From Defluviicoccus sp. (GTDB taxonomy: Bacteria > Pseudomonadota > Alphaproteobacteria > MPNO01): 43,403 nt of DNA. Location of the stretch: NCBI GenBank assembly GCA_022826125.1, contig JAJDVM010000137.1:1-43403 (forward strand), read 5' to 3'. Below, in pieces: positions 12,256-22,416 of the stretch; the stretch's first letter is position 1; every line of letters begins with the position of its first letter. The notes under the pieces are model-generated. The model made no database searches. It saw nothing but the letters and a program-made list of their open reading frames with translations, and was not told the DNA's origin. Made by a program: the position numbers and the translations under genes.

Positions 12256-13590
12256 ATGCGGCTTCTGTCACGCAAGAAGCGGCCGATGCATCTGGGCCGC
12301 TACCCGATGGAGAAGATCAGGCGCGTCGATCGTCCGACGACGTTGATCACGGACGACGTGAAACAGGTGCCCAAGCGCGCCGGCTTCTTCGTCCGCGCCT
12401 TCTATGGCGACCTCGGTCCCAAGCCGGCCAGGGAAATCCGCCGCTTCATCACCAAGAACCCGCTGAACGCGGCGATCGGGCACCTGCACTGGAAGCACGT
12501 GCCTGCCCACAAGGGCGATCCGGCGGATGAAAAGGCGCCGCTCCCCGACGACCCGGAAGAGCTGACCAAACACGTCAAGTCGCTCTGTTACTTCCTCGAT
12601 GCCGACATGGTCGGGATCTGCGAGGTTCCCGAATACGCATGGTTTTCGCATGAGAGCGACGGCACGCCGATCGAGACCCGGCACAAATACGCCGTCGTGA
12701 TCGTGATCGACCAGGGCTGGGACACGTTCGAAGCCTCGTCCGGCGACGATTGGGTATCCGGCGCGCAGAGCTATCGCGCCTATCTCAACGGCTCCACCAC
12801 CGCCACCATCGTCGCCGATTACATCCGCCGCCTCGGCTACCCGGCCCAGGCGCACTCCAACGCCCACGGCGACGTGATGCAGATCCCGCTGATGCTGCTC
12901 GCCGGGCTCGGCGAGATGAGCCGGATCGGCGAGCTCGTCCTCAACCCGTTCATCGGGCCGCGCCACAAGACCGCCATCGTCACCACCGACCTGCCGCTGA
13001 TCCCCGACAAGCCGATCGATTTCGGGCTCCAGGATTTCTGCGACAAGTGCCGCAAATGCGCCCGCGAGTGCCCGGCCCAGGCCATCCCGTTCGGCGACAA
13101 GGTGCTCTACAACGGCTACGAGATCTGGAAGCCCGACGTCGAGAAATGCACCAAGTACCGGGTGACCAACCTGAAGGGCTCGGCCTGCGGGCGCTGCATG
13201 AAGATGTGTCCGTGGAACAAGGAGGGGCTTCTGGCGCACCGGCTCGCCATGTGGGCGGCGATCAAGCTGCCGTTCTCGCGCCGCTTCCTGATCTGGCTCG
13301 ACGACGCGCTCGGCTACGGCAAGCGCAACCCGATCAAGCGCTGGTGGCTCGACCTGGTGAAGGAGGACGGCCGGGTCGTCGCCGCATCCGGAACCAACGA
13401 GCGCGACCTTTCTCTCGAACGCGACGTCTCGGGCGGCAACGAACGGGTCGCGACCTATCCGGTGGACAAGCTGCCCACGTCCGAAGACAAGGAGACCGTG
13501 CCGCTGGACCGCAAGGCGGGGCTCGACGATACGAGGCGGGCGGAGGAAGAGCTGGCCGCGCTCAAGGAGGCGGCGGCGCCGATGCGCTGA
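12256..13590 (+). CDS. Reductive-dehalogenase-like protein with two [4Fe-4S] clusters, cytoplasmic
   Basis: A 444-residue protein resembling the catalytic part of RdhA and QueG corrinoid enzymes. Eight cysteines form a two-cluster ferredoxin module: CDKCRKCARECP near residues 260-271, then one cysteine in VEKC and CGRCMKMCP near 312-320. Before it comes the RdhA-type stretch LAGLGEMSRIGELVLNPFIGPR (about 215-236), part of the presumed corrinoid pocket. There is no Tat signal, and no RdhB-like anchor gene is nearby, so it is not a classical respiratory dehalogenase. Nor is there a fused flavin/ferredoxin reductase domain as in the catabolic type. The C-terminus (about 370-444) is a charged, low-complexity tail. 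A GGGAGG site precedes the ATG. The substrate is unknown. Confidence 0.82.
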   Translation: MRLLSRKKRPMHLGRYPMEKIRRVDRPTTLITDDVKQVPKRAGFFVRAFYGDLGPKPAREIRRFITKNPLNAAIGHLHWKHVPAHKGDPADEKAPLPDDPEELTKHVKSLCYFLDADMVGICEVPEYAWFSHESDGTPIETRHKYAVVIVIDQGWDTFEASSGDDWVSGAQSYRAYLNGSTTATIVADYIRRLGYPAQAHSNAHGDVMQIPLMLLAGLGEMSRIGELVLNPFIGPRHKTAIVTTDLPLIPDKPIDFGLQDFCDKCRKCARECPAQAIPFGDKVLYNGYEIWKPDVEKCTKYRVTNLKGSACGRCMKMCPWNKEGLLAHRLAMWAAIKLPFSRRFLIWLDDALGYGKRNPIKRWWLDLVKEDGRVVAASGTNERDLSLERDVSGGNERVATYPVDKLPTSEDKETVPLDRKAGLDDTRRAEEELAALKEAAAPMR

Positions 13591-18588: not shown

Positions 18589-19605
18589 ATGGACGCAACC
18601 GAAGTCAAGGCCCTGGCGAAGGATCTGGGCGCGGATCTGGCGGGGATCGCGGACGCCTCCGTCCTCAACGCGTTTCCGCCCGACCCGCTGTTTCCGCAGA
18701 CGCCCGAGCGGATTTCTCCGCACGTCAAGAGCGTTGTCGTGATCGCGCAGCGCATTCCCGTCGGCGCCTTCCGGTGCAAGACCAACGTGCCGGTCCAGTA
18801 CATCGACATGCTGGTGCTGAGGCGGATGGACAGGATCGCCTACCGGCTCGTCGACGCGCTCGAACAAGCCGGTCATCCGAGCTTCGTCACCGCGGCGCAG
18901 GAGACCGACTGGAGCTACAAGCGGGCGAGCTACGGGCGGCTGTCGACGCGCCATCTGGGGATCGAGGCGGGGCTCGGCACGTTCGGCCTTGAGGTGAACA
19001 TCCTGACGCCCGAGTTCGGGCCGAGGATCTACCTGACCGGCGTGCTCACCGAATGCGAGCTGGAAGCTGACAAGCCGATGACCGAGCAGGTCTGCATCGG
19101 CGAGAGCTGCAGCCGCTGCCTCTATTCCTGCCCGTCCGACGCGGTCCGTCATTTCGGCATCGACAAGCGCGCCTGTGCCACCGAGGCGCAGGAGTTCGGG
19201 TTCACCACCATTCTGAAATTCTGGGAGCATTTCCTGGCCTCCGACGGGGAAACCAGGCGGCGCTTGATCGCCGACCGGGAAATCTACGGCTTCTGGCAGG
19301 GACTGCTCAGGGTGGTGGGGTCGTTCGGCGACTGTCCCCGTTGCCTCGCGGTCTGCCCGGTGGGCAACGATTACCACGCTTTCCTCGCGCCGCTTCAGAA
19401 GGTGATCCCCGAAAAGACGCCGGAGAAGGTCGACAAGGCTGCCGCGTTCAAGGAGGCCCGCAAGGCGGGTGCCGAAGTGGACGGGCTGAACGACTGGAAC
19501 GTGCGCTGGGTGGGGCCGGAGGGCTACAAGGGCATCGTCGCGCGCCAGCTACAGGCCTTCAAGGCGTTGCAGCGCGAGCGCGAGACGAACGCGGCCGAGC
19601 GCTAG
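18589..19605 (+). CDS. RdhA/QueG-like Fe-S protein, first of a tandem pair
   Basis: A 338-residue protein with an N-terminal QueG/RdhA-type region starting LAKDLGADLAGIAD near residues 8-21. The stretch GIEAGLGTFGLEVNILTPEFGPR near 124-146 is characteristic of corrinoid-binding reductive dehalogenase relatives. Two [4Fe-4S] clusters are predicted from eight cysteines: CIGESCSRCLYSCP near 168-181, one in RACATE, and CPRCLAVCP near 249-257. No signal peptide or Tat motif is present, so it should act in the cytoplasm. The next gene begins at the base after its stop codon and encodes a paralogue, so a heterodimer is plausible. An activity on an organohalide, an epoxide or a hydroxylated acyl compound is inference. 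Confidence 0.82.
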   Translation: MDATEVKALAKDLGADLAGIADASVLNAFPPDPLFPQTPERISPHVKSVVVIAQRIPVGAFRCKTNVPVQYIDMLVLRRMDRIAYRLVDALEQAGHPSFVTAAQETDWSYKRASYGRLSTRHLGIEAGLGTFGLEVNILTPEFGPRIYLTGVLTECELEADKPMTEQVCIGESCSRCLYSCPSDAVRHFGIDKRACATEAQEFGFTTILKFWEHFLASDGETRRRLIADREIYGFWQGLLRVVGSFGDCPRCLAVCPVGNDYHAFLAPLQKVIPEKTPEKVDKAAAFKEARKAGAEVDGLNDWNVRWVGPEGYKGIVARQLQAFKALQRERETNAAER

Positions 19606-20616
19606 ATGGTCGGCGTATTCCAGACCCCGCTCGACGCGGACACAATAAAGGCGAAGGCGAGGGCGCTCGGGGCCGACCTTGTCGGCATCGCCGACGGCGC
19701 GGTGATGGACGCGCATCCGCCGGACCCGCGCGACCCGCGCCGGCCGAAGGACATCACCGAGCATGACGGCGGCCGGGTGATCGTCCTCGCCAAGCGCTAC
19801 TCCGCCGGCACGACCCGGATCGCGCGCTGGGACGAGCGGCACAAGTACTACAACGACGAGCTCGTCCTCACGATGCTGGAGGAGACCTCGCTCGAGCTCG
19901 TCTTCTGGCTGGAGGACAACGGTTATCCCGCGATCATCATCCCGCCGACCCATGCCGATCCGTGGCTCTACCGCGGCGACCGCAACCAGCACATGACCAC
20001 GGTGCTGTCGCTCACCCATGCGGCCGTCGAGGCGGGGCTCGGGACGCTGGGCCTGAACCTGCAGCTCATCACGCCCGAGTTCGGCCCGCGCGTGCTCGTG
20101 ACCGCGGTGATGTGCTCCGTCGACTGCGAGACAGACGGCCGCCGGGAGGAGGCGCTGTGTCTCGGTCCCGAATGCGGCCGTTGCCTGACCGCTTGCCCGG
20201 GAGACGTGGTGGGGCACTGGGAGCGCGACTGGCCCGCTTGCGACAGCTACCGGTCGCCGCACGGCTTCTCGCAGCTCGCGGGTCACCTGGGCGACATCCT
20301 GGAGGCGCCGGACGACGCCGCCAGGCTCGACATGATCCGGTCCGAGACCAGCTTCAACCTGTGGCAGAGCATTTTGCGCGGCGCCGGGGTTATCAGCGGA
20401 TGCCGGCGCTGCCAGGACGTGTGTCCGGTGGGCGAGGACTACGCCCGGATGATCGGCGACAGCCTCGAAGAGATACCGGAGGCGACCCCGGAAAAGGCCC
20501 GGCGGCTCGCGGCCATGGCCGAAGCGGAGGCGCGGGGGGCGCTCCCCGGCTCGTATGCCGGTCAGGAGCGCTGGATCGGCGCGCTCGGCTATCTCGGGAG
20601 CGACGCCGCGGAATGA
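19606..20616 (+). CDS. RdhA/QueG-like Fe-S protein, second of a tandem pair
   Basis: A 336-residue paralogue of the preceding protein, with the same domain order. It starts with an ARALGADLVGIAD stretch near residues 18-30, then EAGLGTLGLNLQLITPEFGPR near 143-163. A double-cluster module follows: CLGPECGRCLTACP near 185-198, one cysteine in WPACDSY, and CRRCQDVCP near 266-274. Its ATG begins exactly at the base after the upstream stop and its own stop overlaps the next start (ATGA), so all three genes are translationally coupled. The two paralogues differ clearly along their length, so this is an old duplication rather than a recent one. Confidence 0.82.
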   Translation: MVGVFQTPLDADTIKAKARALGADLVGIADGAVMDAHPPDPRDPRRPKDITEHDGGRVIVLAKRYSAGTTRIARWDERHKYYNDELVLTMLEETSLELVFWLEDNGYPAIIIPPTHADPWLYRGDRNQHMTTVLSLTHAAVEAGLGTLGLNLQLITPEFGPRVLVTAVMCSVDCETDGRREEALCLGPECGRCLTACPGDVVGHWERDWPACDSYRSPHGFSQLAGHLGDILEAPDDAARLDMIRSETSFNLWQSILRGAGVISGCRRCQDVCPVGEDYARMIGDSLEEIPEATPEKARRLAAMAEAEARGALPGSYAGQERWIGALGYLGSDAAE

Positions 20617-21959
20617 GCGCCCTGGAGACCCTGGCCCGGGGGCGTCCGGACATCTACGCGGATCTGCCGCTTTGCATCCCGGAGAGCCCGGAAGAGATCG
20701 CGGCCATCCAGAGCAGACGCAAGCGCATCGCCGTCGAGCGCGCCCGCAGATCGCCGTTCTGGCGCCCCCGCCTCGAGGGGATCGACATCGACAAGCTCGA
20801 CGACCCCGAGGAATGGTCGAAGATCCCGATCCTGACCAAGGATCGGCTTCGCGCGATGTCCGACGAGCGGTTTTACGAGGATTTCTGCACGCTCGACGGT
20901 CAGGAAATCTGCGAGTACTGGCGCTCGGGCGGGAGCACCGGAAAGCCGCTCTTCTACCCGAAGACCTTCGAGGACATCCTCTTCAACATGGTCGGTTTCA
21001 TCCGTACCTTCGCATCCGCCGGGATCGAGGACGGAGAGAACCACAGGGCGCACATATCGACCCCGCTCGGCGTCCATCCGGTCGGTCACATGTGGGCGCG
21101 CGCGGCGCAGATCATGGGGATGGGCGCGGTCTGGGCGGGATCCGGTGCGTCTCTTCCGTCGGTTCAGCAGCTCGCCCTCATCTCCTCGCTCAAGCCCACG
21201 GTCTGGATGGGCATGTCGAGCTACGGGCTGCACCTCGCCAACCTTGCCAATTCGCGGGGCGTCGATCTCGCCGAAAGCCCGGTCTCGACGATGCTGTGCT
21301 CCGCCGAGGCGCTTTCGGCCGCCAAGCGGGAAAAGCTCGAACGAGACTGGGGCGCCACCGTCTTCGACTGTTTCGGGATGACCGAGATCAGCATGCTGGC
21401 GGCGGAAGGACCGTCCCGCCAAGGGTTCAGGACCTGGACCGATCTCGCGATTTTCGAGGTACTCGACCCCGATACCGGCAAGCCGGTGCCGGACGGCGAG
21501 GCCGGCCACCTGGTTTCTACCGCGCTGTTCGGCAACAACGGAGCGCCGTTCCTGCGTTGGGATTCGGGCGACATCGTGATCATGAACCCCGCCGGAGGCG
21601 ACGACGGGGCGTTCTCGGTCTTCCCGACGATGCGCCACGCCCACCGCACGGCGGGTTTCTTCAAGCTGCGCGGCGTCAACGTCAACCACCAGGAGTTCGA
21701 GGACATGATGTTCGGGCACCGTTCGGTGAACGACTTCAAGCTCGAACTGATCGGCGATGCCGCCGGCCTTGAGCATCTGCGGGTCTCCGTCGAGCCGCGG
21801 CGCGGCGCCGACGCCGCCGCGCTGCGCGGGGATCTGGAGCGGCGCACCAAGGAGACCTTTGAGCTCTCGCCCGACATCGTGATCCTGGAACCCGGCGTAC
21901 TGGCCGGCGAATTCGAGGCCAGCGTGAAGGCGCCGCGCTTCATCGACCGGCGTCGGTAA
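20613..21959 (+). CDS. Phenylacetate-CoA ligase-like adenylate-forming enzyme (PaaK/CapK group)
   Basis: A 448-residue adenylate-forming enzyme. The phosphate-binding loop reads SGGSTGKP (near residues 107-114). FGMTE (near 254-258) is the adenine-site motif, RWDSGDI (near 314-320) contains the ribose-binding aspartate, and FKLRGVNVNHQEFED (near 349-363) is the hinge and start of the C-terminal lid of PaaK-type ligases. It should activate an aryl or acyl carboxylate with ATP, usually to the CoA thioester. The start overlaps the stop of the second Fe-S protein as ATGA, and an intrinsic terminator follows the stop. This makes it a fixed partner of the two RdhA-like proteins and suggests that their substrate is a CoA-activated or activatable acid. 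Confidence 0.88.
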   Translation: MSALETLARGRPDIYADLPLCIPESPEEIAAIQSRRKRIAVERARRSPFWRPRLEGIDIDKLDDPEEWSKIPILTKDRLRAMSDERFYEDFCTLDGQEICEYWRSGGSTGKPLFYPKTFEDILFNMVGFIRTFASAGIEDGENHRAHISTPLGVHPVGHMWARAAQIMGMGAVWAGSGASLPSVQQLALISSLKPTVWMGMSSYGLHLANLANSRGVDLAESPVSTMLCSAEALSAAKREKLERDWGATVFDCFGMTEISMLAAEGPSRQGFRTWTDLAIFEVLDPDTGKPVPDGEAGHLVSTALFGNNGAPFLRWDSGDIVIMNPAGGDDGAFSVFPTMRHAHRTAGFFKLRGVNVNHQEFEDMMFGHRSVNDFKLELIGDAAGLEHLRVSVEPRRGADAAALRGDLERRTKETFELSPDIVILEPGVLAGEFEASVKAPRFIDRRR

Positions 21960-21971
21960 CGGTATCCAAAT

Positions 21972-22016
21972 AATCACCGGCCGGGCGTCCATTCGACCGG
22001 GTGATTCGCTTTTTTT
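21972..22016 (+). terminator. Rho-independent terminator of the Fe-S/CoA-ligase operon
   Basis: The arms AATCACCGG (21972-21980) and CCGGGTGATT (21997-22006) pair with a single bulge, and seven T residues follow at 22010-22016. It begins 13 bases after the ligase stop codon. Confidence 0.85.
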
Positions 22017-22326: not shown

Positions 22327-22416
22327 TGGTGGATGGGGTGGGATTCGAACCCACGAGACGTTTGCGCGCCTGCCGGTTTTCAAGACCGGTGCCTTCGACC
22401 GCTCGGCCACCCATCC
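22327..22416 (-). tRNA. tRNA-Ser (anticodon TGA), CCA encoded
   Basis: A 90-base class II tRNA read on the minus strand. The acceptor GGATGGG pairs with CCCATCC, the anticodon loop CTTGAAA gives anticodon TGA (reads UCN serine codons), the variable arm is long, the T loop is GTTCGAATC, and CCA is encoded at the 3' end. The candidate sRNA terminator and AT-rich DNA lie just beyond its 3' end. No integrase or duplicated tRNA 3' end is seen nearby. Confidence 0.96.

Follow-up and report, generated by a model that had tools for sequence, protein, structure and literature searches.

Closest described systems and the three-gene unit

Within the class III B12/Fe-S superfamily, dehalogenation and the reduction of epoxyqueuosine are the two well-studied chemistries. 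Aryl-CoA reduction, by benzoyl-CoA reductases and by 2-aminobenzoyl-CoA monooxygenase/reductase, follows activation of the acid as its coenzyme A (CoA) ester. The present analysis concerns a three-gene unit (A-B-C) on contig JAJDVM010000137.1 of Defluviicoccus sp., whose entire length of 43,403 bases is referred to as the window. Gene A (18589..19605, forward strand) encodes a 338-amino-acid (aa) Fe-S protein of the QueG/RdhA fold and ends in TAG; gene B (19606..20616, forward) encodes a 336-aa paralogue of A and ends in TGA; and gene C (20613..21959, forward) encodes a 448-aa AMP-forming, PaaK-like CoA ligase. Gene A is 98% identical to its nearest named record in the genome collection. The A-B-C proposal shares with the CoA-ester enzymes the idea of activation followed by reduction, whereas the cofactors and folds proposed for A-B differ from theirs. 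A-B-C looks like an undescribed enzyme of uncultured bacteria that reduces aromatic-type acids intracellularly; an obligate A-B heterodimer acting on an aryl- or cyclic acyl-CoA made by C is proposed, with a probability of about 0.5. The initial annotation, made from the window sequence, knew of no described system of this composition, and none was found among the open-access matches listed, as judged from titles and the beginnings of abstracts; subscription papers lie mostly outside this scope.

The genes of the unit are directly joined. The ATG of B at 19606 stands immediately 3' of the A stop in an unchanged frame, and the ATG of C at 20613 lies within the B stop as an ATGA overlap; both junctions had been placed exactly to the base in the initial annotation. 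The TAG with an in-frame adjoining ATG (window 19603-19608) also occurs in loci L006-L009 of the same genus, and stops, gaps and frames differ in other lineages. The open frame of A has only 344 codons and the start of B abuts its stop, so there is no room for a twin-arginine translocation (Tat) signal, as had been claimed. Family profile scans likewise detected no reductase domain fused to A or B. The claimed absence of an anchor protein held for the scanned window neighbours; the scan did not extend to an RdhB-like gene among small open reading frames.

Kinship, fold and cluster cysteines of A and B

With about 38% identity to each other, A and B appear to go back to an old duplication. Alignments A1 (A, 21 rows) and A2 (B, 20 rows), built from loci picked for spread, contain eight invariant cysteines in each protein, in agreement with the eight cluster cysteines first read from the window. 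Across 71 superfamily rows, seven cluster cysteines are invariant and the eighth is present in at least 90%. The AGLG...LTPEFGPR stretch, previously compared with corrinoid reductases, was also found in both proteins. In the phylogenetic tree, A formed one clade (support 95/80) and B another (93/93); together with the related c38 family they clustered as one group (99/98), apart from the reductive dehalogenases (RDHs), QueG and the L005-type protein. In L105 (3811-5865), A and B are fused at full length in an intact 684-aa open frame without a stop; this fusion occurs in one genome, and an assembly error could in principle explain it.

The predicted structure of A contains a corrinoid-reductase core with the same fold as RdhA, and QueG is among the nearest folds. 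The core domain and the two-cluster ferredoxin module that define class III corrinoid/Fe-S proteins are both present. In a first, shallow model (21 rows, pLDDT 61.4) the best match to NpRdhA lay at residues 81-242, whereas the deeper model matched NpRdhA at about 351-691; because of this shift no weight was placed on the shallow model. For QueG, which has a C-terminal HEAT-like repeat domain, the structural matches stop at model residue 263-266; the C-terminus of A is helical. The earlier description of cytoplasmic Fe-S proteins with a corrinoid-reductase core fold is therefore supported, for A by the predicted model and for B by homology. Within the B12/Fe-S superfamily, A-B is best read as a new subfamily.

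Active-site columns and family cut-offs

Two papers give the catalytic residues as Tyr246/Arg305 in PceA and Y426/K488 in NpRdhA (PMC4646009, PMC7565698). The corresponding columns of A and B were read from a sequence alignment, not from a structural superposition. At the RDH Tyr column, A has Leu (15), Met (4) or Asn (2) and B has Leu (14), Ile (5) or Thr (1), with Tyr in 0/21 and 0/20 rows, respectively. The Asn/Asp column is occupied in A by Ala (16), Gly (3) or Asn (2), and in B by Pro (17), Tyr (2) or Thr (1). Where RDHs have Lys or Arg, A rows contain Tyr (19) or Asn (2), and B rows contain Met, Leu, Ile or Gln. Tyr, Asn, and Lys or Arg are retained in five RDH-like control rows, of which three are near-identical orthologues: the window RDH (12256-13590), its L006 and L009 orthologues, the L095 RDH and the L005 protein. 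The QueG row, with its DYH motif, is shifted by one position here, so that His, the residue after the Tyr, stands in the Tyr column; the Tyr comparison therefore rests on the RDH rows. Neither A nor B conserves the catalytic Asp that the QueG row shows. A has its own invariant residues, namely Gln70, Arg78, Tyr115, Arg121 and His122, of which His122 is common to B; the placing of Tyr115 is uncertain because the surrounding loop (105-118) is poorly predicted.

The family scores are also low. Against TIGR02486 (cut-off 160.35 bits), A and B reached 33.0 and 15.8 bits, whereas the control window RDH reached 201.4; against the QueG model TIGR00276 (cut-off 200 bits), they reached 50.0 and 37.5. 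A canonical dehalogenase or QueG identity for A and B was ruled out by these cut-offs together with the residue columns. Further differences are found on both sides. A-B differs from QueG in being two proteins linked to a ligase, and also by an insert, about 40 residues long, ahead of the final cysteine motif. In contrast to RDHs of the PceA, NpRdhA and BhbA type, A-B lacks a Tat signal and a reductase domain, and its second copy (B) retains the clusters and is a separate gene. Proteins of the A/B type are at risk of being annotated as dehalogenases or epoxyqueuosine reductases; the residue columns argue otherwise.

Dehalogenation had been one of the reactions suggested for the unit, and A-B might act as a cytoplasmic cobalamin-dependent reductive dehalogenase on halogenated aryl-CoA. 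The shared RdhA fold of A is in its favour, as are the RDH-family genes of the order (over the cut-off in 17 of 27 genomes) and locus L095 (3518-10156), where A, B, an RDH-family protein, an acyl-CoA dehydrogenase and a ligase stand in one row and the RDH directly after B scored 185.2 bits. However, the scores of A and B are far under the RDH cut-off, the Tyr and Lys/Arg partners retained by the five controls are not kept, and L094, where the genome of L095 carries another copy, contains the same operon minus the RDH. This reading is considered improbable.

Occurrence and conservation of the unit

A search with A of the genome collection returned 27 loci, and 26 of the 27 records are titled metagenome-assembled genome. 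In whole-genome searches with the alignment of A (E<=1e-40), A was present in 10/27 genomes of the order, 11/385 of the class and 1/398 drawn from the phylum, the last being the genome of the window itself. A mobile element was rejected as a carrier, as there was no plasmid match at E<=1e-20 and no relative in a pattern-based viral-contig scan.

After three duplicates were dropped (L099, L104 and L107, of L021, L013 and L015), 45 distinct loci remained. Two loci cut by contig ends (L024, L032) and one with B in two pieces in different frames (L027) were kept as B-positive. Several loci share a genome (e.g. L093-L095; L019 and L028) or a genus (the window and L006-L009), and the 45 are therefore not independent. 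B follows A in all 45, with a gap of -28 to +83 bases except in L089 (+482) and the fused L105. Conservation of the trio, which the initial annotation had asked to be checked, extends across genera and families. In 28/45 loci the next gene is closely related to C (49-100% identity). Another AMP-forming or PaaK-type ligase occurs in 9/45, right after B in L029, L030, L097 and L105, immediately before A in L090 and L092, and at a more distant downstream position in L025, L094 and L095. A ligase thus lies within a few kb in 37/45 loci, and the genes of the unit overlap or are closely spaced in many of them. Since AMP-binding genes have a density of about 8 per Mb in six A-bearing genomes, this proximity is far above chance, although the loci are not independent. 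The fixed ligase coupling claimed earlier is therefore strong but not strictly fixed, as four ligase queries detected no ligase in the remaining loci.

A co-occurrence test independent of gene neighbourhood was also made, with scoring limited to the top 4 or 5 candidates in each genome. C-type ligases (E<=1e-60) were found in exactly the 11 A-bearing genomes and in 0/374 others (class, n=385; 7 genera); within the order they were present in 10/10 A-bearing genomes.

Ligase C and its paralogues

C matches the AMP-binding family PF00501 with 55.6 bits (cut-off 29.9) and shows PaaK-type homology along most of its length. PaaK itself is likewise AMP-binding; however, C scored 106.4 bits with the PaaK equivalog TIGR02155 (cut-off 646.3) and 145.1 with NF041878 (cut-off 700). 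These values are far under the equivalog cut-offs and place C in a separate subfamily of the PaaK family.

Fifteen loci of C paralogues were inspected, a subset of the C-type genes from the class and order searches. A salicylyl-CoA 5-hydroxylase/oxidoreductase-like gene adjoins the C paralogue in 4/15 (L129, L131, L132 and L134); the two that were scanned scored 1084.5 (L132) and 1075.3 bits (L131) against a cut-off of 1078. These neighbours hint at aryl-CoA chemistry. In two loci of one genus (L125, 5498-8846; L127, 5685-9028), another two QueG-like Fe-S proteins, relatives of the c38 family, are encoded in tandem and divergently from the C paralogue. Liv-type ATP-binding cassette (ABC) genes are located near this pair in both loci. 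MetE-like genes (B12-independent methionine synthase type, one scanned) were also observed on the C-paralogue loci L124, L126, L129 and L136.

Proposed function

A and B would form an obligate heterodimer, probably derived from an old duplication, each half of which would consist of a corrinoid-reductase core and, behind it, a module carrying two [4Fe-4S] clusters. C would adenylate an organic acid, probably benzoate or a related aromatic or cyclic type, and convert it to the CoA thioester, which A-B would reduce at low potential in the cytoplasm. A corrinoid, bound base-off in class III proteins, would be held in the core, and a housekeeping ferredoxin or flavodoxin may supply the electrons by way of the clusters. 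The active site presumably lies in A, rebuilt from the RdhA/QueG form, with B as the partner subunit; the product would then enter CoA-dependent degradation. Because of the active-site residues dehalogenation is disfavoured, and with low confidence the reductive cleavage of a C-O (or C-N) bond, or reduction of a ring, appears likelier. The A-B branch, with its rebuilt active site and its tie to a ligase by gene order and identical genome distribution, would represent a third class III chemistry. The CoA ester made by C is a ready substrate hypothesis, which makes the function directly testable.

In a more specific form of the proposal, A-B would be a heterodimeric aryl-CoA reductase with corrinoid and [4Fe-4S] cofactors that tolerates oxygen and works with its own ligase, as the B12-dependent equivalent of the benzoyl-CoA reductases. 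This is a doubtful suggestion with a small chance of being correct; if true, the host bacteria would run it beside oxygen-dependent CoA pathways, and B12/Fe-S chemistry would be widened from halides and epoxides to CoA-activated rings.

Several observations weigh against a ligase-coupled A-B reductase. Four ligase queries detected none in 8/45 loci (L022, L024, L026, L027, L028, L031, L032 and L102). Three of these contigs (L024, L028, L032) end inside B or at most about 1.5 kb past it, and the Burkholderiales loci L026, L027 and L031 have no ligase within about 10 kb. C-type paralogues (46-50% identical) occur in three A-less genomes of the order, which implies that C-type ligases also function alone. 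The AMP-binding and Liv permease families are common in A-bearing genomes, and the neighbouring pathway genes differ by locus, none being found in all loci. On the structural side, the fold was predicted from A alone, the core fold of B rests on homology, the loop 105-118 of A is poorly predicted, and the tree does not settle which of A, B and c38 branched off first.

The ligase-negative loci would also agree with C and A-B working separately and being neighbours through shared regulation only, as would the genome G480, in which the C-type gene and A-B are on separate contigs. The identical co-occurrence in 11/385 genomes, the overlapping or tightly spaced genes in many loci, and the further tandem pair of Fe-S proteins next to a paralogue of C argue against this, and separate action is judged to be quite improbable.

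Neighbouring genes

Various genes of CoA-dependent pathways lie around A-B. PaaA-like oxygenase genes were found at L025, L026, L027, L031 and L092, with a 27% match in L015; Rieske dioxygenase genes at L011, L012 and L014; and genes like old yellow enzyme (OYE) at L010, L020, L022 and L023. Acyl-CoA dehydrogenases, enoyl-CoA hydratases and thiolases are variously present, and L010 contains a gene just below the benzoate-CoA-ligase family cut-off (368.2 versus 375.25). Together these neighbours point to a CoA-dependent, partly oxygen-dependent breakdown of aromatic or cyclic acids. In the window, the nearest CaiB-type CoA transferase and enoyl-CoA hydratase genes lie past a divergent GTP cyclohydrolase II gene.

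The oxygenases and flavoenzymes might instead be the partners of A-B, which would then be a corrinoid-less electron-transfer complex feeding a PaaA-like epoxidase, a Rieske dioxygenase or an OYE. The lack of conservation of the RdhA/QueG active-site residues and the neighbours at five, three and four loci, respectively, are consistent with such a role, and a precedent might be the corrinoid-free duplicate domain that NpRdhA is reported to bear (PMC10463259). However, no single oxygenase or flavoenzyme was found to be common to the loci, whereas the CoA ligase is; moreover, the entire core fold is retained and A has strictly conserved residues of its own. An electron-transfer complex is thus regarded as unlikely, while retaining some weight.

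The PaaA-like genes at five loci also bear on a possible QueG-like epoxyacyl-CoA deoxygenase protecting aerobic epoxide-CoA pathways. QueG, one of the nearest folds to A, reduces an epoxide (PMC4646009), and PF05138 matches were detected in 12/16 A-bearing genomes examined. Nevertheless, 4/16 genomes gave no PF05138 match at E<=1e-8 and both A and B lack conservation of the Asp that is catalytic in QueG, which leaves a deoxygenase with very little probability compared with the preferred reduction of a CoA thioester made by C.

LivH- and LivG-type genes were both found in 8/45 loci (L010, L017, L021, L025, L026, L027, L031 and L100), and LivH with a binding protein in L024; in several loci the Liv genes are close to the unit. 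Because six A-bearing genomes have about 8.5 Liv-type permeases per Mb, the case for Liv-type ABC importers as partners is suggestive only. A transglutaminase-like protein is encoded near A-B in 9/45 loci (L011, L012, L014, L019, L089, L091, L101, L102 and L103), detected by tblastn and in one case by Pfam.

A terminator had been proposed to close the unit. The candidate, a weak hairpin with a T run (21972..22016, forward), folded no better than shuffled sequences (z 0.61), and the terminator-like sites on both strands numbered 3 against 2.9 expected; this part of the initial annotation is therefore weak. A search for RNA switches such as a cobalamin riboswitch at five loci (the window, L010, L017, L021 and L026) gave a tRNA as the sole gathering-level Rfam match. 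A tRNA gene is located at 22330-22416 on the reverse strand of the window, shortly downstream of the unit.

RDH-family genes in the same and related genomes

The window also contains a separate RDH-family gene (12256..13590, forward; 444 aa), about 5 kb upstream of the unit and outside it, which serves as a contrast case. It exceeds the RDH cut-off, keeps the Tyr, Asn and Lys columns, and has orthologues in other genomes of the genus. Two A-less genomes of the order contain relatives with 59% and 75% identity. RDH genes above the cut-off were found in 8/10 order genomes with A and in 9/17 without A, and a link between A and RDH genes was set aside as not clear. The genome of the window contains a second RDH-like match on another contig (L139, G000:C217, 1183-12890), in a 737-aa open frame. 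About 737 aa is the size of self-sufficient catabolic RdhAs. The same contig encodes an AMP-binding ligase 59% identical to the L010 ligase, and a Rieske-like match.

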